From: Candidatus Scalindua arabica | GTDB taxonomy: Bacteria; Planctomycetota; Brocadiia; Brocadiales; Scalinduaceae | NCBI GenBank assembly: GCA_018263435.1 | Contig: JAANXD010000088.1 | Coordinates: 1-41,497 of the forward strand | Direction of reading: 5' to 3' | Length of the DNA stretch: 41,497 nt | Shown here: one piece after another, positions 6,731 to 23,416 of the stretch | Position numbering within the stretch: position 1 is the first letter of the stretch | Layout: each line of letters opens with the position of its first letter | The notes under the pieces: model-generated | Seen by the model: only the letters and a program-made list of their open reading frames with translations | Database searches by the model: none | What the model was told of the DNA's origin: nothing | Made by a program: the position numbers and the translations under genes

Positions 6731-7942
6731 TTAAAACACGTTTAAGCCATCTATCAACATTACTTCTACCATATCACCGGCGTTCAGCTTCTCAACCGAT
6801 TCTCTGACAATAAGCAGACAATTAGCCTTTGTGGTTGAAAACAGATCTCCAGAACCGTGCCAGTCTACGAGAGAGACCTTCCACCCGGAACCTGCCTGGC
6901 TCAACAATGCAGGCCGATATTCTCGGCGCTTTTTCTTGATTTTAATCTCCCTTTCCAGTTCCGCATGCATTATTGGATGTCCATAAGAGGTGAACCCCAT
7001 CATCTTTTTGATACATGGTTTTACAAACAATTCAAAGGTAACAAAGGTTGACACGGGATTACCGGGGAGTGCAAAAACCAGCTTATCACCCTTCTTGCCA
7101 AACACCGTGGGTTTGCCCGGCCTGAGGGCTACTTTATCAAAGAATATCTTAACACCAACATCCTGTAACACACCACCTACAAGATCAAATTCCCCCATTG
7201 ATACTCCTCCGGACAGTATCAATATATCTTTCCTCAAACCCCTTTTAATCAATTTCATTATCTCTTTCTCATTATCATTGACCCTGCCGAGAATCTCAAC
7301 GTCCGGAACGATCTGCCGAGCCTGTGCCGCCAGAGAATAGCTGTTACTATTACGTATCTGCCATGGCTTTGGCTTGCGCGTAATCTCTACCAGCTCATCA
7401 CCTGTAGATATAATGCCTATACTCGGAGTTGAATACGCTTTAACGTTACTCTTGCCAACTGCGGCAAGGATACCGGCCTCCTGTGCCCTTATCTTCGTTC
7501 CCTTGCGAAGGACCACGTTGCCAACACGGACATCCTCTCCCTTCCTGGCAATATTTGCACCCTTTTTTGTTCCTTTAAGAATACTCACCTTTCTGTCATT
7601 GTCTAATGGTTTTGTTTCCTCCACCTTTATAACCGCATCAGCGCCTTTGGGAACTACAGAACCCGTCATGATCTTAGCCGCCTGTCCCCTGCCAACTCTT
7701 TTCTTCGGGTTGTATCCGGCACGTATATTTTCTATGACTTCAAGATCCACCGGTGGATTTATATCATTTGCAATCACAGCATAACCATCCATTGCAGACC
7801 TGTTAAACGGCGGCATATTTAAATCTGACTTGATATCCTCCGCCAGACAAAGCCCGGCTGTATTCTCCAGCTTCACCTTTTTGGGTAACAGTCTTTTCCC
7901 ATTCTTTAGAACGATCTGCAACGCTTTATCAACACTTATCAT
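6731..7942 (-). CDS. moeA: Molybdopterin molybdenumtransferase
   Basis: Inserts molybdate into adenylylated molybdopterin, the last step of molybdenum cofactor synthesis in the cytoplasm. The 403-aa protein shows the N-terminal signature PPFNRSAMDGYAV, the MoCF-fold stretch IGIISTGDELVE with ILSGGVSMGEFD, and FALPGNPVSTFVTFELFV before the C-terminal beta-barrel domain. It has a good ribosome site (GGAGAG four bases before the ATG). No other cofactor gene is adjacent; a MOSC-domain gene lies at 27920-28438. Molybdoenzymes such as nitrate/nitrite oxidoreductase would be the natural clients, but none is in the window. Confidence 0.95.
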   Translation of the reverse strand: MISVDKALQIVLKNGKRLLPKKVKLENTAGLCLAEDIKSDLNMPPFNRSAMDGYAVIANDINPPVDLEVIENIRAGYNPKKRVGRGQAAKIMTGSVVPKGADAVIKVEETKPLDNDRKVSILKGTKKGANIARKGEDVRVGNVVLRKGTKIRAQEAGILAAVGKSNVKAYSTPSIGIISTGDELVEITRKPKPWQIRNSNSYSLAAQARQIVPDVEILGRVNDNEKEIMKLIKRGLRKDILILSGGVSMGEFDLVGGVLQDVGVKIFFDKVALRPGKPTVFGKKGDKLVFALPGNPVSTFVTFELFVKPCIKKMMGFTSYGHPIMHAELEREIKIKKKRREYRPALLSQAGSGWKVSLVDWHGSGDLFSTTKANCLLIVRESVEKLNAGDMVEVMLIDGLNVF

Positions 7943-9011: not shown

Positions 9012-9803
9012 GGGTCAGGTCTTTCATTATAACATTTCGTCTTTTACTTCTCTACTCTCTTGATAATCCGGCCTATGTGCATATCTTTGAACTCTTGGTA
9101 TTTCCTTTATACTCTCTTTTTTCTTTATCAGCTTACTGTATTTCTCTATTAACTTTCCGCTCCAAGAAATACCTGACCTTTTATTTCCCTCCATGGAAAC
9201 TCTTCATCTTTACCGGCTACGATAAATTCCTTATAGCCGGATAATGCCTCTGACTTGTCATCTCCAAATTGAGATAGTATCCAATCTGTTGTGAGAAATG
9301 GAGGTTTATTAACTTTGCCAATTATTGCTTTATAACTACTCCATTTCCATGCATAGGGGCCTTTCACCAATTTGGCTCTTACAGGATTGAGCACAATATA
9401 TCGACATAAAGCCAGGAGATATTTATCTTTATCCACCAGTATCGATTTATATCTACCTTGAAATAAATGCCCTACCCCTTTGTGCCTTTTATTAAACAAT
9501 TGAGTATAAACACCATTGAGTTGTCTCATTCCTCTGGAAAGATTGCCTTCTGGTGTTTCAATCATCAAATGATAATGATTGTCCATCAGGCAATAGGCAT
9601 GGCAAAGCCAGTTAAATCTTTCTACTACTGAATTGAGAACTTCAAGAAATCGTTGTTTGTCGCTGTCATCGAGAAATATAAGTTGTCTCGCATTTCCACG
9701 TGAAGTTACGTGATAAACTCCGCCCTCAATTTCTAAACGTAAAGGCCTTGTCATAATGGTAGAAATAATATCAAATTATTTATGATATTGCAAGACCTGA
9801 CCC
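9012..9803. mobile_element. REP-associated transposase element with 12-bp terminal inverted repeats
   Basis: GGGTCAGGTCTT (9012-9023) and AAGACCTGACCC (9792-9803) are perfectly complementary and bracket the Y1 transposase reading frame with 3 and 37 bases to spare. Similarity continues a little inside the ends (CATTATAACAT versus CAATATCATAA). Elements of this sort (RAYT, IS200/IS605-related) move through single-stranded DNA using end hairpins, so the ends are plausible boundaries. The transposase is frameshifted, so this copy probably cannot move itself. Confidence 0.75.
9027..9754 (-). pseudogene. REP-associated tyrosine (Y1, HUH) transposase, frameshifted near the C-terminus
   Basis: The open part (9149-9754, 201 aa) has the family start MTRPLRLEIEGGVYHVTSRG, the HUH metal motif NHYHLMIETP, the GHLFQGRYKSILV stretch and LNPVRAKLV. 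It stops right after GQVFLGAES. One base out of frame the sequence continues KLIEKYSKLIKKK and EIPRVQRYAHRPDY up to a TAA at 9027-9029, which matches the usual C-terminal tail of this family (IPR.QR.A.RP). Adding one A in the run GGAAAG near 9152 would restore a roughly 242-aa protein. Sequencing error is the alternative explanation. Confidence 0.85.
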
Positions 9804-10392: not shown

Positions 10393-11016
10393 ATGTCTAA
10401 GTTTTATCCAATCTATTTAGATGTTAAAGATAAGAAATGCGTTATTGTTGGAGGGGGGAAAGTGGCATACCGGAAGGTATGCAGCTTGAAAGAGGCAGGT
10501 GCTGAAGTAGTTGTGGTCAGCCCTGAAACCTGCCCTGAAATTACGGACAAGAAAGGCATTGTTTTAATAAAAAAGAATTATGATGAGAGTGTTTTAGATG
10601 GTGCCTTACTTGTTATTGCCGCAACGGATAACGAGGCAGTTAACAAAAAGGCGGCGTTGGATGCAAGGAAAAGGAACATAATTGTAAACGTGGTTGATCA
10701 CCAGGAACTTTGTTCCTTTATTGTTCCTTCAACAATAAACAGAGGAGACCTTTGTATAAGTATTTCAACCGGAGGTGCAAGTCCTGCTGTTTCTAAAAGT
10801 GTTAGAGAGGAATTGGAGGTTGTCTTTGGTTCAGAGTATGAAGAGTACCTGAATTTGCTGACTAAAATGCGCAGTATTGCAATGTCGGATATCAAAGACA
10901 GTGATAAACGCAGAAGGGCGCTCCAGCGTCTGGCGGATAAAGATATTCTGGATATTGTGAAGAATAAAGGCGTCACGGAGGCAGAGGCAAGAATAAGGGA
11001 GACAATGTTTAAGTGA
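10393..11016 (+). CDS. Precorrin-2 dehydrogenase / sirohydrochlorin ferrochelatase (siroheme synthase, Met8p/CysG-N type)
   Basis: Oxidises precorrin-2 to sirohydrochlorin with NAD+ and probably inserts iron to make siroheme. The 207-aa protein starts FYPIYLDVKDKKCVIVGGGKVA, a Rossmann site typical of the family, followed by IAATDNEAVN and NVVDHQELCSFIVPS, which holds the conserved Asp and the PS(x)xxRGDL..SISTGGASPA region. The uroporphyrinogen methyltransferase half found in full CysG is absent. Its product, siroheme, is the cofactor needed by the sulfite-reductase-like protein encoded 330 bases downstream, which strongly suggests a shared pathway even though repeats separate the two. Confidence 0.93.
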   Translation: MSKFYPIYLDVKDKKCVIVGGGKVAYRKVCSLKEAGAEVVVVSPETCPEITDKKGIVLIKKNYDESVLDGALLVIAATDNEAVNKKAALDARKRNIIVNVVDHQELCSFIVPSTINRGDLCISISTGGASPAVSKSVREELEVVFGSEYEEYLNLLTKMRSIAMSDIKDSDKRRRALQRLADKDILDIVKNKGVTEAEARIRETMFK

Positions 11017-11103: not shown

Positions 11104-11171
11104 GAAAACTTATAAATTTAAGACAACCCCCTTAATCCCCTCCTTGCGAAGGAGGGGATTAAGGGGGTTGT
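11104..11171. repeat. Perfect 23-bp palindrome, family C, copy 2
   Basis: GAAAACTTATAAATTT (11104-11119) is followed by an exact inverted repeat: arms 11123-11145 and 11149-11171, loop GCG. Apart from the outermost bases it is the same unit as at 2846-2910. The hairpin would be very stable and could also stop transcription from the siroheme gene, but no T-run follows. Confidence 0.85.
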
Positions 11172-11183
11172 AACCTGAAAAGA

Positions 11184-11346: not shown

Positions 11347-12240
11347 ATGTCGTCTGAAAATACGGATGCCGGAAAAGTTGACTTAAATGAATTGAAATCC
11401 GGCGGGTTTATAAAACAGAACCAGAAAGACCTTTTTACGGTTCGTTTAAGGGTGCCGGGAGGCAGGCTTGATATCGATAGGATGATCAAGATTGGCGAAG
11501 TGGCAAAGAAATACAGCAGGATGGGCTACTGCCATCTTAGTGTCAGGCAATCAGTTGAAATTATCGGTGTACATATTGACGACTTTGATACCCTTGTAAA
11601 GGAATTGGCAGAATTTGGCCAGCCAGTTGCATCCTGTGGTCCCAGGGTTCGCGTTCCTACAGCCTGTGGTGGTTGCGAGTACAACCCCAATGGAATTATG
11701 GATGCCCAGAAGAAGGCATTGGAGGTGGATAAGGAACATTTTGGCACACCATGCCATCACAAGTTTAAGATTTCGTTTTCCGGCTGCCCGATAGATTGTG
11801 CCAGGACACAGGGAATGGATCTGGGATTTCAGGGTATGGTGGATCCGCATTGGGAGGACGACCCATGTACCGGATGTACTCTTTGTGAGAAGGCGTGTCT
11901 GGAAGGAGCTATAGTCTCTGATGAAGATGGAAAGCCTATATTTTACAGGGAAAAATGTGTATATTGTGGAGACTGTATAAAGGCATGCCCTACAGATGCG
12001 TGGACTGCAAAACGAAAGGGTTGGGCTGTCCGTGCAGGTGGAAAGCATGGAAGGCATCCCAGGGAGTCAGATGAGATTATGCTGTTCCTGCCGGATGACA
12101 AGGTATCAGACTTTATTGGGAAAACCCTTGCCTGGTATAATAAAAACGGAAAGAGGGGAGAAAGGATAGGAGCAACTTTTGATCGTGTAGGATTGGAGAA
12201 TTACAAAGAAGAGGTTGCGCGTCCTTTTATTACAGATTAG
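11347..12240 (+). CDS. Small siroheme [4Fe-4S] sulfite/nitrite-reductase-like protein with fused 2x[4Fe-4S] ferredoxin domain
   Basis: Probably reduces sulfite or a related oxyanion with electrons passed through its own ferredoxin domain. The 297-aa protein has an N-terminal ferredoxin-like half domain (TVRLRVPGGRLD, LSVRQSVEI), a siroheme-cluster region with C107-x2-C110 (TACGGCEYNPNG) and C147-x3-C151 (SGCPIDC), and two ferredoxin motifs: C174-x2-C177-x2-C180-x3-C184 and C204-x2-C207-x2-C210-x3-C214. The layout matches small, single-subunit AsrC/Dsr-like proteins rather than full assimilatory enzymes. The first siroheme cysteine pair is C-x2-C, not the usual C-x5-C. The DsrE-like gene starts at the next base. 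Substrate is inferred. Confidence 0.82.
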   Translation: MSSENTDAGKVDLNELKSGGFIKQNQKDLFTVRLRVPGGRLDIDRMIKIGEVAKKYSRMGYCHLSVRQSVEIIGVHIDDFDTLVKELAEFGQPVASCGPRVRVPTACGGCEYNPNGIMDAQKKALEVDKEHFGTPCHHKFKISFSGCPIDCARTQGMDLGFQGMVDPHWEDDPCTGCTLCEKACLEGAIVSDEDGKPIFYREKCVYCGDCIKACPTDAWTAKRKGWAVRAGGKHGRHPRESDEIMLFLPDDKVSDFIGKTLAWYNKNGKRGERIGATFDRVGLENYKEEVARPFITD

Positions 12241-12657
12241 ATGGAAGAGAAGAAATTTATACTTTTTCTGCATAGTGGTAATTACGAAAAATTATATCAG
12301 GCAGTAATGCTGGCTATTACATCAGCCTCTATGGGGAACAAGGTCTACATTTTTTTATTCTTTTGGGCTTTAAAGAAATTTGTAACTGACAAGCTGGACG
12401 TTATTGAGTTTCCTGCCGGAATGAATGAGGAAGATAAACGCCTGTTAGAAGCCGTACCACAGGGACAGCCAAATATGCTGAAGGAATTACTGAGTGAAGT
12501 AAGCAAGATGGGCAACTTAGAGATCTATGCATGCAGCGGTGCTGTAAAGTTAATGGAGCTGGATGAAGAGCTGGTAAAAAGCAAGGTCAAAGAGATTATA
12601 GGGCTGCCCTCAATGTTGAAGATGGCAGAAGGTGCGGAAACTCAGCTCTTTATTTAA
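12241..12657 (+). CDS. DsrE-family sulfur-transfer-like protein
   Basis: Likely a cytoplasmic sulfur relay protein. The 138-aa product has the DsrE/DsrE2-type start FILFLHSGNYEKLYQAVMLA, the SMGNKVYIFLFFWAL helix region and one conserved Cys, C98, in IYACSGAVKLMEL, the position used for persulfide carriage in this family. Its ATG follows directly after the stop codon of the sulfite-reductase-like gene, so the two are surely co-expressed. DsrE proteins next to TusA-like proteins (here 13362-13604) commonly pass sulfur between each other. Confidence 0.85.
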   Translation: MEEKKFILFLHSGNYEKLYQAVMLAITSASMGNKVYIFLFFWALKKFVTDKLDVIEFPAGMNEEDKRLLEAVPQGQPNMLKELLSEVSKMGNLEIYACSGAVKLMELDEELVKSKVKEIIGLPSMLKMAEGAETQLFI

Positions 12658-12693
12658 ATAGTAATCGTAGACAAGAATTAGTTTAAAAAAATA

Positions 12694-13365
12694 GTGATTC
12701 ACATTAATCAGCATTTAGTTAACAGGATGTTAAAAGAGGCGAAGACTGCCTACCCTCATGAATGCTGTGGTTTGCTTGTAGGCGATAGTAATGATTCCGG
12801 GAAAGTAGTACGTGAGGTTTATCCGGTTGAAAATAAGAATAAAGTAAGGGCAGAGGATAGATATGAAATAGACTCTAAGGTATTTGATGAGATAGATCGA
12901 GAAGCAACAAAAAAAGGGTGGAATATAACAGGTATTTATCATTCGCACCCTGACCATCCCGCGGAACCTTCAGCATTTGATAAAGAGTGTGCAAATGTAT
13001 GGACGGAGTATTCGTACATAATAATATCAGTTAAGAACGGAGTAGAAGAAGAGCTGAAATCCTGGCGCTTCGATTCTGAGAAGTGTGAGGTTGTGGAGGA
13101 AAAATTAAAGATAAGAAGGCGCGACTTTATAATAGGTGTGTCGTTTATAGCGCTTAGCTTTAGTGCATGGTTTATCACCCCTCTAATATTTACCCTTCCT
13201 TTGTCCATAAAAGCAAAAACCAGTTCTGCCTTTATAAGCTATTTCTTAATTAGTTGGGGTTTGACTGGCATAGGTATTTATTTTGCCGGCAGGGAAGGTT
13301 ATGAGTTCATAAAGCAGGAGATATTAAAAGGTGTTTTTAGAAGAATGGTAGGTAAAATAAAATGA
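12694..13365 (+). CDS. Membrane-anchored JAMM (Mov34/MPN, M67-type) metalloprotease
   Basis: The N-terminal 130 residues form a JAMM domain with all zinc and catalytic residues: E23 (HECCGLLVG) and H83-x-H85-x7-S93-x2-D96 (YHSHPDHPAEPSAFD). Bacterial relatives release amino acids or sulfur from C-terminal Gly-Gly sulfur carriers, as Mec+ does in CysO-dependent cysteine synthesis. Here the domain is followed by a basic stretch and two membrane helices (about residues 145-170 and 180-198), ending in a basic tail; that extension is unusual. The start is a GTG without a clear ribosome site. It overlaps the TusA-like gene by 4 bases. A role in processing a thiocarboxylated carrier is inference; no such carrier is visible in the window. 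Confidence 0.85.
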   Translation: MIHINQHLVNRMLKEAKTAYPHECCGLLVGDSNDSGKVVREVYPVENKNKVRAEDRYEIDSKVFDEIDREATKKGWNITGIYHSHPDHPAEPSAFDKECANVWTEYSYIIISVKNGVEEELKSWRFDSEKCEVVEEKLKIRRRDFIIGVSFIALSFSAWFITPLIFTLPLSIKAKTSSAFISYFLISWGLTGIGIYFAGREGYEFIKQEILKGVFRRMVGKIK

Positions 13366-13604
13366 GTGAAAATACAGCAGATGAAAAAATTGATTTAAGG
13401 GGTGTTCTTTGTCCTATTAATTTTGTAAAGACAAAATTAAAACTGGAAATGATGGAGGATGGACAGATTCTGGAAGTGACCCTCGATGATGGAGAACCGA
13501 TGAGAAGTGTTCCCAGGAGTATCAAAGAAGAAGGGCATAAAGTTACAAAAGTTGAACAGTTTGATGATGGGTACAAAATATTTATAAAAAAGGGTGACAG
13601 TTAA
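13362..13604 (+). CDS. TusA/SirA-family sulfur carrier
   Basis: An 80-aa protein with the family pattern DLRGVLCPINFVKTKLKLE. C17 is the persulfide-carrying cysteine; the motif reads CPIN where TusA itself has CPxP, a variant often seen in carriers tied to sulfur oxidation or reduction rather than tRNA thiolation. The beta-strands VTLDDGEP and the end GYKIFIKKGDS fit the fold. Its ATG overlaps the end of the JAMM gene (ATGA), so it closes the block siroheme reductase, DsrE, JAMM, TusA. Confidence 0.92.
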   Translation: MSENTADEKIDLRGVLCPINFVKTKLKLEMMEDGQILEVTLDDGEPMRSVPRSIKEEGHKVTKVEQFDDGYKIFIKKGDS

Positions 13605-19275: not shown

Positions 19276-20676
19276 ATGAGCAAAATAAACAATAACAATT
19301 TGGTTCTTAGAAATGGTTCTAAAATTGCTATAATTGGAGGCGGGCCAGCAGGCAGTTTTTTTGCACATTTTGCATCGCGTTATGCAGCAGAAATGGGCAT
19401 TGATGTGACTATAAAAATCTTTGATATAAAGAGTTTCTGCCAGAAAGGCCCGCGTGGTTGTAATATGTGTGCCGGGGTCATTTCAGAAAACCTGTTTACC
19501 AAATTAGAAGAAGAAGGAATAAACATTGCGCAACATTGCGTACAGAAAAAAATAGAATGTTACTACTTTCAGATGCAGGATGACGGTGTGCTTCTCCACC
19601 ACCCTGCTTCAGGACACACACCAAGGATTGTTACCGTATTTCGTGGAAATGGCCCTTTAAGATCTATTCATGAAGGTAATGTCAGCTTTGATGATTTTCT
19701 CTTAAATCATGTAAAAGAACGAGGGGTAGAATTAGTCTCTGAGGTTGTAAAAGAGTTCAGGCTGCCTGACACAAAAGGAGATCCAGTAAAAGTAATTTAT
19801 GGCAATGGGGATTCAAAGAATGAATTTGATGCGGACCTTGTGGTTGGCGCCTTTGGTGTGAATACCGGCATGATGGAGAAGGCCGGCAAAATGAACTTTG
19901 GTTATAAACCGCCAAAGACCGTTCGAACGTGCCAGTGTGAAATAATGTTAAGTCCTGAATATATCGAGAAAACATTCGGCAACAATGTCTTTGTTTTTGC
20001 ATTAGCTAAAGAGAAACTTAAATTTGCTTCCATTACACCAAAAGCAGACTATGTGACTGTCAGCTTAGTGGGCAAAACAGATTTAACCCGAAAAAATCTG
20101 ATAGACTTTCTTAATCATCCGGCAGTGAGAAAATTGATGCCAAAAGATTGGGAAATCCCTAAGAGCTTTTGTATGTGTATCTCCAGGATTCCGGTAACAT
20201 ATGGAAAGCATTCTTATACAGACAGAATAGTTATATTAGGAGATGCAAGCATTTCAAGGTCTTATAAAAGCGGCATAGAATCGGCCTTTAATATGGCAAA
20301 GTTATCGGCTTATACAGCTTTTAAGCAAGGAGTATCTGAGGGAGCGTTTAAGGAAGGCTACTTTAAACCGGCGAAAAGGCTTCTGGCTCGTGATAATTTA
20401 TACGGTATTATAATGCTCAAAATAAACGACTATTTATCATCCCAAAAGCAAATAGCAAACGTTAACATAAAGATTATTAAATCCGGCAAGGACAGGGAAA
20501 CTGCTAATAAAATTAACGAGATATTATGGAACATGTTAACGGGAAACAGGCCTTACAAAGAAATATTTCATCTGGCAACGAATCCTCGTCTTGTTTTAAA
20601 GATGTTACCGATTAATTCGTTTGCCTGGGCAAGACAGAAGAGGGATGATATCAGCGCCTGGTTAAGAAGGAATTGA
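19276..20676 (+). CDS. FAD-dependent oxidoreductase, geranylgeranyl reductase-like (single module)
   Basis: A 466-aa flavoprotein. It has the N-terminal FAD site KIAIIGGGPAGSFFAHFAS, then CQKGPRGCNMCAGVIS with a C-x2-C pair where geranylgeranyl reductases have a conserved cysteine, DLVVGAFGVNTG, and VILGDASISRSYKSGIESA, the second FAD contact. The fold suggests reduction of C=C bonds in an isoprenoid or other hydrophobic chain, but the substrate is unknown. It is closely similar along its length to the first half of the next gene, which starts 8 bases downstream, so the pair arose by duplication. AGG sits two bases before the ATG, an unusually tight ribosome site. Confidence 0.8.
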   Translation: MSKINNNNLVLRNGSKIAIIGGGPAGSFFAHFASRYAAEMGIDVTIKIFDIKSFCQKGPRGCNMCAGVISENLFTKLEEEGINIAQHCVQKKIECYYFQMQDDGVLLHHPASGHTPRIVTVFRGNGPLRSIHEGNVSFDDFLLNHVKERGVELVSEVVKEFRLPDTKGDPVKVIYGNGDSKNEFDADLVVGAFGVNTGMMEKAGKMNFGYKPPKTVRTCQCEIMLSPEYIEKTFGNNVFVFALAKEKLKFASITPKADYVTVSLVGKTDLTRKNLIDFLNHPAVRKLMPKDWEIPKSFCMCISRIPVTYGKHSYTDRIVILGDASISRSYKSGIESAFNMAKLSAYTAFKQGVSEGAFKEGYFKPAKRLLARDNLYGIIMLKINDYLSSQKQIANVNIKIIKSGKDRETANKINEILWNMLTGNRPYKEIFHLATNPRLVLKMLPINSFAWARQKRDDISAWLRRN

Positions 20677-20683
20677 ATGTCCA

Positions 20684-23416
20684 ATGAAAGATAAAGATCT
20701 TTTTCTAAAAGATGGTTCGAAGATTGCCATAATAGGCGGTGGGCCTGCAGGGTGTTTCTTTGCTCATTTTGCTTCAAAAATTGCCAGGGAAAGAGGCATT
20801 AAAGTTGACATAACCATATTTGAAGGAAAAGACTTTTGTCAAAAAGGTCCTCGAGGCTGCAATATGTGTGCCGGTGTTATCTCTGAGAAGCTTTATCTGG
20901 AATTAAAAGAAAATGACATGCTTCCTCCAGAGAGGTGTATTCAAAAAGAGATTGAAGGCTATTATTTCCAAACGCAGGATGGTTGTATAGAAGTTAACAA
21001 TCCAAATCCATCTACAGAGAAAAAGATAGTAACGGTTTACAGGGGTGATGGGCCAATGTTTTCACAACAGTCTGAAAGTATAAGTTTTGACAACTTTCTT
21101 TTGAGGCATGTAGAGGGCATGGGGGTTAACATTAGCCCTGACATTGTGAATGATGTAGTTTTGCCATCAAAAAAGAAGGAACTAGCAAAAGTGGTTTTTG
21201 GAAAGAGAGGTTCAAGAGAAGAAATTAATGCAGATTTGGTAGTAGGCGCATTTGGGTTGAATAGCGGTATGCTGGAAAAAATAAAGAGACTGGAATTTGG
21301 TTATGTTCCACCTCGTACCGTCAGGGCTTGCCAGGCAGAGATTTATATAGGTAATAATAATGGTAATAATTACCTTGGTAATAAGATTCGCGTTTTTTCA
21401 TTAGGCATAAAAGCTATTACGTATGCCTCTTTTACACCAAGGGGAGACTATATTACCGTAACACTGGTTGGCAAGACTGATATGAATAAGGCCCATTTAG
21501 TTGAATTTCTTAATCATCCTGTTGTGCGCCGCACGTTCCCGGAAGAAGGCTGGAAGATGCCAAAGAATTATTGTATCTGTTTTCCTAAAGTACAAATCAC
21601 ACAGGCAAAGAAACCATTTACTGATAGATTTGTTGTTTTAGGAAGTGCGGGAATATCACGATATTATAAACACGGTATTGAATCAGCCTTTATCACCTCC
21701 AGGATGGCAGTAAACAGTGTATTTAGATCCGGCGTATCAGAAAGTGCTTTTTGGCGCAGTTATTATAAACCCGTAAAGAAGCTTTTGGGGTCTGACAACT
21801 CATATGGAAGAAAGGTTTTTGGACTTAATGATTATATAACTTCTCGAAGGCGTATCTCGTCCGGCTATTTATCAGTACTCGAATCAGGTGAGAAATTACC
21901 CGTTGCCAGGATGCAGTTAGAAGTTTTATGGAATATGTTTACAGGAAACATACCATTTAAGAAATTATTCCTAAAGGTATTCGACCCGATTCTACAGTTC
22001 AGATTATTACCTGTTACTTTAACTGCCTGGACAAAACAAGCTGTAGAGTCTACGGTTGGAGGCAAGAAGTTAAGACATACGAAGAGATTAAGACATTTAG
22101 CGAATAAAGGGCTCGGCCCTCTTGAGGACGGCCAGACGGTAGTTATTATAGGTGGAGGTCCCGGTGGGACAAGCTGTGCAATCACGCTTAGCAGATTGGC
22201 AAGAAGGCGTAATATGGATTTGGACATAGTACTGTATGAAGGCAAGGATTTTGAAAAAAATGAACAGTTTAATCCATGTGTAGGAGTACTGTCTCCACCT
22301 ATAGAAGAAATACTGGAAGAGGATTTGGGGATTCCATTTCCACATGATCTTGTACTGGAAGAGATACCAGGATATTATCTGCATTCTGATGACGAAGATA
22401 TAAAACTGGAAGGTGATGGAGAAGTATCATGTGCTGTTCATAGAATGTTATTTGATAATTACCTGATACATAAAGCAAAAGATGCAGGAGTAAAAGTGAT
22501 ACATAGCCGGGTAACAAATATTGATGTTGAACAGAGCGGAGTAATGGTTTATAGTGAGAAAGACAACAGGAGAGCAGACGTTGTAGTTGGTGCATTCGGC
22601 CTGGATGAAGGAGCTTGTAAGGTTTTTGAAACTGCAACACATTATAAGACTGCCCGTTATATGAGTACTATTTTGACCAAATTTTATCCGGAAAAAGAGG
22701 AAATGGAAAAATTTGGAAATTGTATACATGCATTTCTTCCTTCACTTAAGGGAATAGAGTTTGGCGCTATAACCCCAAAAGTCGACCATCTTGATATAAA
22801 TATTGCCGGCTCAAAGATTAGTTGGAGCTGGATGGATCACTTTCTTTTAATGCCTCAGGTTACCAAGGTCTTACCCTCAAATTTTGCCATGCAGAGACAT
22901 GAGTTATTTTATAGTCGTTGGCAATTCCCCACTGCCCCGGCAAAGAATCTCTTTGGAGACAGATATGTTACCGTAGGTGATACCGCTGGTATAATTCGTG
23001 CCTTTAAGGGTAAAGGTGTGAATACTGCATGTATTACCGGGATAAAGGCTGCAGAGGTTATGATGTACGCAGGCATATCAAAAGAAGCTTTTAAGGATTA
23101 CTATAATAGTTTTTCTTATATCACGGGTGATCTTCCTTACGGAAGAGTGGTTAGACTTCTTGCAACTTTTAGCTCACATTTTGGACTGTTTTCTCCCATG
23201 ATTAAACTGGCAATGGAAGACAAGAAATTTAGAATGGCATTTTTCAATTCTGTTGCAGGCAGCAAAATGTTTAAAAAAATAATATTTGAGACCATTAGTT
23301 TACAATTATCCTGGAAAATAATAAAAATTCTTATTTCATGGTTCTTAAAACAATTCTCCTTTATGTCATGGGCGACAAAATACGTAAGTAAAATTATTCC
23401 TGATAAGCGAACTTAA
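20684..23416 (+). CDS. Two-module FAD-dependent oxidoreductase, geranylgeranyl reductase-like fusion
   Basis: A 910-aa protein made of two complete flavoprotein modules. Module 1 (about residues 1-455) parallels the upstream gene: KIAIIGGGPAGCFFAHFAS, CQKGPRGCNMCAGVIS, VVLGSAGISRYYKHGIESA (here the usual Gly-Asp is Gly-Ser). Module 2 (about 480-890) starts VVIIGGGPGGTSCAITLSR, has FNPCVGVLSPP in place of CNMCAG, and VTVGDTAGIIRAFKGKGVNTA. The C-terminus has hydrophobic stretches that may touch the membrane. Module 2 is more distant from the other two. Anammox lipids and quinones are possible substrates, which is speculation. A sensor kinase gene starts 11 bases later. Confidence 0.8.
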   Translation: MKDKDLFLKDGSKIAIIGGGPAGCFFAHFASKIARERGIKVDITIFEGKDFCQKGPRGCNMCAGVISEKLYLELKENDMLPPERCIQKEIEGYYFQTQDGCIEVNNPNPSTEKKIVTVYRGDGPMFSQQSESISFDNFLLRHVEGMGVNISPDIVNDVVLPSKKKELAKVVFGKRGSREEINADLVVGAFGLNSGMLEKIKRLEFGYVPPRTVRACQAEIYIGNNNGNNYLGNKIRVFSLGIKAITYASFTPRGDYITVTLVGKTDMNKAHLVEFLNHPVVRRTFPEEGWKMPKNYCICFPKVQITQAKKPFTDRFVVLGSAGISRYYKHGIESAFITSRMAVNSVFRSGVSESAFWRSYYKPVKKLLGSDNSYGRKVFGLNDYITSRRRISSGYLSVLESGEKLPVARMQLEVLWNMFTGNIPFKKLFLKVFDPILQFRLLPVTLTAWTKQAVESTVGGKKLRHTKRLRHLANKGLGPLEDGQTVVIIGGGPGGTSCAITLSRLARRRNMDLDIVLYEGKDFEKNEQFNPCVGVLSPPIEEILEEDLGIPFPHDLVLEEIPGYYLHSDDEDIKLEGDGEVSCAVHRMLFDNYLIHKAKDAGVKVIHSRVTNIDVEQSGVMVYSEKDNRRADVVVGAFGLDEGACKVFETATHYKTARYMSTILTKFYPEKEEMEKFGNCIHAFLPSLKGIEFGAITPKVDHLDINIAGSKISWSWMDHFLLMPQVTKVLPSNFAMQRHELFYSRWQFPTAPAKNLFGDRYVTVGDTAGIIRAFKGKGVNTACITGIKAAEVMMYAGISKEAFKDYYNSFSYITGDLPYGRVVRLLATFSSHFGLFSPMIKLAMEDKKFRMAFFNSVAGSKMFKKIIFETISLQLSWKIIKILISWFLKQFSFMSWATKYVSKIIPDKRT

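Follow-up and report, generated by a model that had tools for sequence, protein, structure and literature searches.

The trimming of carriers past a Gly-Gly is a known activity of JAMM peptidases, and in the HcyS/HcyD/HcyF methionine pathway of Wolinella a JAMM-type peptidase acts on a carrier with residues behind the Gly-Gly. The desampylases HvJAMM1 of Haloferax and JAMM1 of Pyrococcus are soluble proteins that regulate or deconjugate SAMPs, and we know of no cysteine synthase or sulfite reductase linked to either of them. In M. tuberculosis the chemistry of CysO, CysM and Mec+ has been established (PMC3227635). For operon types 4c and 4e, the consulted sections of Iyer 2006 (PMC1779556) describe ThiS/MoaD proteins together with JAB, E1, SirA/TusA, sulfite reductase and sulfate-assimilation enzymes, and in these operons TusA/SirA was proposed to substitute for the rhodanese domain of the E1. 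In another system, DRJAMM of Deinococcus was reported to cleave MoaD-MoaE (PMC8832034). Nothing specific on CysO/JAMM in anammox bacteria was found in the literature, and a limited look at the anammox literature brought up no mention of sulfur assimilation by these organisms.

Here we describe a block of four genes from a Scalindua-type anammox bacterium which we consider likely to belong to a cysteine biosynthesis of the CysO type (by protein thiocarboxylate), as its sulfite-reducing and sulfur-handing half plus the peptidase. What is new here is the membrane-anchored JAMM protein, the dispersed arrangement of the genes and the predicted trimming of the carrier.

Results

The window, the whole 41,497-nucleotide stretch analysed, belongs to a 2.69 Mb draft genome of the Brocadiales (G000) that, within the named-genome collection, is closest to Candidatus Scalindua and other members of the order. 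Comparisons were made with 62 Brocadiales genomes in families f1-f4, f1 being the Scalindua family (17 genomes), and with 80 named-genome loci. The features are the following.

10393-11016, plus strand: precorrin-2 dehydrogenase of the CysG N-terminal domain type, siroheme synthesis (TIGR01470, E 1.8e-47; PF13241)
11347-12240, plus strand: small siroheme-[4Fe-4S] sulfite reductase (SIR), 297 residues, with an inserted 2x[4Fe-4S] ferredoxin domain (PF01077, PF03460 and Fer4; Pfam NIR_SIR and Fer4)
12241-12657, plus strand: DsrE-family protein with invariant Cys98 (YACSG) (PF13686/PF02635, alignment)
12694-13365, plus strand: JAMM gene with GTG start (ORF; Pfam Prok-JAB)
12694-13107, plus strand: JAMM/Prok-JAB metalloprotease domain, residues 1-138, catalytic E23, H83, H85, S93 and D96 (PF14464, E 1.1e-25)
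13120-13362, plus strand: C-terminal two-helix membrane tail of JAMM, residues 143-223, helices 143-165 and 172-222 (NF033684 similarity, AlphaFold)
13362-13604, plus strand: TusA-family sulfur-transfer protein, CPIN replacing CPxP (PF01206, E 3.9e-22)

The ORF coordinates (11347-13604) give spacings of 0, 36 and -4 bp between SIR, DsrE, JAMM and TusA and, with the Pfam and TIGR01470 matches, bear out the four-gene layout with a siroheme-making gene upstream that had been read from the letters in the original prediction. The precorrin-2 dehydrogenase gene lies 330 bp 5' of the block and adjoins SIR in most of the Brocadiales loci fetched. The TusA motif, described earlier as CPxN, is CPIN or CPMN in all 23 aligned sequences. 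DsrE is probably a persulfide relay; its gene is not universal, being missing from the loci of two relatives (L048, L050).

The closest solved relative of SIR is the C-terminal half of the F420-dependent sulfite reductase Fsr (7np8, E 5.6e-35). Like Fsr and the small sulfite reductases of the AsrC type, SIR has a siroheme half with an inserted ferredoxin domain; it differs from them in having no F420 domain, in an invariant C97 and in the absence of the usual second Cys of the C-x5-C motif. Of the 23 aligned sequences, 22 share C97, C107, C147 and C151 without change and the other one is a fragment; the position of C110 is occupied by Cys or Asn. It is possible that the [4Fe-4S] ligand set is altered, perhaps through C97. 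SIR matches were found in 61 of the 62 Brocadiales genomes, and nearly all are near-full-length orthologues. In one Scalindua-family genome (G060, locus L041) an in-frame TAA splits the SIR gene into pieces of 215 and 79 residues, and the JAMM frame of the same locus also carries a TAG close to its end.

No residue is missing from the JAMM motif (E23, H83-S84-H85-x7-S93-x2-D96), and none of them varies among 40 relatives, in agreement with the earlier statement that every catalytic residue is kept. The AlphaFold model (mean pLDDT 91.6) has a JAMM fold followed by a helical hairpin of the helices 143-165 and 172-222, so that the two C-terminal helices noticed before are seen in the model as well. 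The predicted fold matches that of Pyrococcus PfuJAMM1, free and SAMP2-bound (5ld9/5lda), and motif and fold together are those of a Mec+-like JAMM peptidase.

The tail remotely resembles the transporter suffix domain NF033684; a scan of 10 tailed orthologues matched it every time, with a best E of 2.7e-8 and a best score of 36.4 bits, always under the curated cut-off of 40 bits. Purifying selection acts on it: across 12 genomes its median dN/dS is 0.25, and that of the JAMM domain 0.10. Within the 62 Brocadiales genomes the tail is present only in genera g1, g3 and g4 of family f1; it is conserved in 14 of the 17 Scalindua-family genomes, and it is absent from genus g2 of this family and from all other anammox families tested, in which JAMM is a soluble protein of about 140 residues. 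Among the 80 named-genome loci, the 11 with a tail are all Scalindua-type, and the tail was found in none of the 69 non-Scalindua-type or g2 relatives. The helices are therefore conserved in most Scalindua and not in JAMM orthologues at large, and membrane tethering can be regarded as a lineage-specific add-on that lies outside the core pathway. That the tail is an assembly artefact is ruled out by its conservation in the Scalindua family and by the purifying selection. A paralogous donor was not found within Scalindua; the JAMM tail is the sole NF033684 match per genome, indicating that no donor copy is left. The second helix is followed by 7 K/R and 3 D/E residues, charges that would fit a hairpin with both ends in the cytoplasm. 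Such a hairpin probably anchors JAMM to a membrane with the catalytic domain on the cytoplasmic side, where both the identity of the membrane and the orientation are what we infer. As a guess, anchoring might keep carrier maturation close to a membrane, for example by a sulfur-compound transporter.

JAMM occurs in 59 of the 62 Brocadiales genomes, and in 54 of these 59 it lies on the same contig as SIR within about 4 kb. As the SIR orthologue is itself nearly order-wide, this linkage places the block far beyond chance. The order in the other anammox families is (argH-lysA-)cysG-SIR-DsrE-cysteine synthase-JAMM-TusA, with DsrE missing from two of the loci read. In families f2-f4 the cysteine synthase gene thus sits directly 5' of the JAMM gene, between it and DsrE (or SIR), and its best NCBIfam model is TIGR01138 cysM (387 of 394 bits, just under the equivalog cut-off). 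The order without the synthase is found in Scalindua only; hence the expectation that the gene order recurs in other genomes holds for relatives in general, and the exact order of the block is peculiar to this group.

In Scalindua the synthase has been relocated, and a 52%-identical homologue is encoded at C72:19498 of G000. A second cysteine synthase lies on contig C45 beside a CysE-like gene, an arrangement shared by most Scalindua g1 genomes, and family f3 has only weak CysE matches. The latter hints that the acceptor in f3 is something other than acetylserine, such as O-phosphoserine, a hint that is not decisive because most g1 genomes do have a CysE-like gene. ATP-sulfurylase (PF01747) is present in most Brocadiaceae and f3 genomes; of the 13 Scalindua genomes of genus g1 a single one has it, and G000 does not.

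The original prediction held that the block encodes no ubiquitin-like carrier and that one ending in Gly-Gly should be sought elsewhere. The block indeed lacks such a gene, and the carrier is encoded at a distance from it (C78:80222-80482 of G000). Anammox genomes usually have two ThiS/MoaD-family proteins, a ThiS beside thiG and a carrier of 91-95 residues, the only MoaD-like protein besides ThiS. This MoaD/CysO-like beta-grasp protein has M. tuberculosis CysO as its best PDB match (3dwg_C, E 2.8e-24). In the carriers of 52 Brocadiales genomes PAIAGG is found in 52 of 52, and the Gly-Gly is terminal in only 8; the other 44 run on for 1-24 residues without family-wide conservation, with tails that include FI, VS, KALSM, SAL, TEDY, NYRI and KLMLKEF. 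A tail of this sort is present on all 15 Scalindua-family carriers read. A sequence held constant as far as the Gly-Gly and drifting freely beyond it is the pattern expected of a carrier that would be cleaved after the Gly-Gly. In other phyla, carriers beside JAMM genes either form a fusion with the E1 or end in tails of the same kind (IS, RC, SI, F, K, AFGR, GRA). A MoeB-type E1 of 269 residues without a rhodanese domain is encoded on contig C79 of G000, and its counterparts in outgroups are linked to JAMM. The carrier gene (L099:7714-9354 and relatives) adjoins that of threonine synthase in most anammox loci read and also in Deltaproteobacteria.

In Deltaproteobacteria, Acidobacteria and others, CysM-JAMM-(CysO)-MoeB clusters are the common arrangement. 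In several deltaproteobacterial loci (L163, L168, L171) the order (ThrC-)SIR-TusA-CysO-NIL-CysM-JAMM-MoeB lies on one stretch, and these clusters use the same SIR and CPxN TusA families as the anammox block. Next to the L171 cluster are a sodium:sulfate symporter and a PAPS-reductase-type protein, and L161 has an APS kinase. Given these sulfate-assimilation genes, an assimilatory role from sulfur to cysteine is the best supported. A stand-alone 78-residue NIL-domain protein (PF09383) follows the carrier in L163, L165, L168, L169 and L171.

Discussion

In the CysO-type pathway that we propose, SIR would reduce sulfite, and the sulfur would move through DsrE and TusA, or as sulfide, to the rhodanese-less E1, which would attach it to the CysO-like carrier in the form of a C-terminal thiocarboxylate. 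The CysM-like synthase would then couple the carrier sulfur with activated serine to give a carrier-cysteine adduct, and JAMM would cut after the Gly-Gly and so trim the carrier extension, free the cysteine, or both. As in M. tuberculosis, where CysO, CysM and Mec+ operate with MoeZ, there is a CysO-like carrier, a cysteine synthase, a JAMM peptidase and a MoeB/Z-type E1. The anammox set departs from that system in its rhodanese-less E1, in the TusA/DsrE and sulfite reductase found with JAMM, in the tails that most carriers have past the Gly-Gly, in the dispersal of its genes and, in Scalindua, in the membrane anchor of JAMM.

The protein families and their logic, with TusA in the place of the rhodanese, agree with types 4c and 4e in the consulted sections of Iyer 2006 (PMC1779556), and an E1 without rhodanese in the presence of TusA fits the type 4e operons in particular. 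Compared with those operons DsrE has been added, and in G000 the genes for carrier and E1 lie away from the block, whereas the deltaproteobacterial loci have the type 4e genes in one neighbourhood. The same sections make no mention of a fusion of JAMM to a membrane tail.

Several observations do not sit easily with the CysO-type reading. The eight carriers that end at the Gly-Gly belong to genomes that keep JAMM, which cysteine release alone would explain; ATP-sulfurylase of the PF01747 type is missing from G000 and most of its genus; DsrE is dispensable; and the model gives no reason for a carrier gene beside threonine synthase. Since in Scalindua the genes for CysM, CysO and MoeB lie elsewhere in the genome, their connection to the block rests on orthology with families f2-f4 and the outgroups, in which a CysM-type synthase is partnered with JAMM. 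The CysE-like gene and second cysteine synthase of most g1 genomes also suggest that the carrier route may be a secondary one. With the CysO-type pathway, a concrete and order-wide route of sulfur assimilation is assigned to anammox bacteria, and an orphan JAMM gains a testable substrate, a carrier with its Gly-Gly hidden behind a variable tail. An anchored sulfur-carrier peptidase confined to marine-type anammox bacteria would also be a clear-cut example of a housekeeping pathway in which an enzyme has gained a domain.

A different function, which we regard as unlikely, is protein modification of the SAMP or TtuB kind, with the carrier conjugated to lysines, JAMM acting as a (membrane-bound) deconjugase and sulfur transfer as a second role. 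JAMM shares fold and motif with the archaeal desampylases, including PfuJAMM1 bound to SAMP2, and its best model match is the desampylase NF041370 (79.6 bits, curated cut-off 130 bits); the carrier scores 59.2 of 60 with the SAMP1 model and the E1 366 of 450 with that of the SAMP-activating UbaA. However, all these scores are under the curated cut-offs, no E2-like gene was seen, and JAMM is recurrently coupled to cysteine synthase, sulfite reductase and sulfate-assimilation genes. A SAMP-like conjugation role alongside sulfur transfer is possible.

The transfer of carrier sulfur to activated homoserine instead of serine, as in the HcyS/HcyD system of Wolinella, would account for the proximity of the carrier gene to thrC, which also opens several deltaproteobacterial clusters. 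We find this version quite improbable, as the PLP enzyme adjacent to JAMM is of the CysM/CysK type and no O-acetylhomoserine sulfhydrylase was seen within the clusters; the predicted amino-acid product is cysteine and not homocysteine.

It was also considered that the carrier is a MoaD and that JAMM serves molybdenum cofactor synthesis by freeing MoaD or MoaD-MoaE conjugates in the manner of Deinococcus DRJAMM. The carrier is the sole MoaD-like protein besides ThiS, and MoaA, MoaC and MoeA are present, but the operon context is that of sulfur assimilation and MoaE (PF02391) was detected in 0 of 17 Scalindua-family and 1 of 62 Brocadiales genomes with positive controls, the 61 without it including single-contig ones. 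MoaD-MoaE is thus not the substrate, and such a role for JAMM is largely rejected as very improbable. Anammox bacteria use molybdoenzymes but appear either to be without molybdopterin synthase or to have a replacement for it, and this MoaE gap in molybdoenzyme-dependent bacteria is directly testable. It is conceivable, if rather unlikely, that a single carrier of the CysO kind, which in nearly all anammox bacteria is the sole MoaD-like protein and in Scalindua is matured at a membrane by the anchored JAMM, feeds both cysteine synthesis and, via an enzyme replacing MoaE, molybdopterin synthesis for nitrite oxidoreductase. MoaC was found in 56 of 62 Brocadiales genomes, a MoaA-like gene adjoins MoaC on contig C39 of G000, and MoeA lies in the window (6731-7942). 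In G018, the sole genome with MoaE, an extra ThiS-family gene adjoins it.

The original prediction of a sulfite-to-carrier route remains valid as far as JAMM acts on a sulfur carrier, whereas its proposal that JAMM itself releases or recycles the sulfur of carrier conjugates without the participation of an amino acid, compatible as it is with the gene set in the window, is extremely improbable, since JAMM chemistry is peptide or isopeptide hydrolysis and the cysteine synthase in the same operon in other anammox families and Deltaproteobacteria supplies an amino-acid acceptor and points to peptide-bond cleavage.

The surroundings of the block have features of their own. A long, near-perfect inverted repeat (ACAACCCCCTTAATCCCCTCC...GGAGGGGATTAAGGGGGTTGT), read by eye, lies at 11121-11172 between the precorrin-2 dehydrogenase and SIR genes, and a REP-associated (Y1-type) transposase-like gene is found upstream of the block at 9149-9754. 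Downstream, FAD-dependent reductase-like genes occupy 19276-23416, separated from TusA by a betaine-type methyltransferase, a BCCT-like transporter and an aminotransferase. Genes of this reductase-like kind lie directly 3' of TusA in the relatives L031 and L032, and they also flank the JAMM region in the f3 loci L049 and L050.
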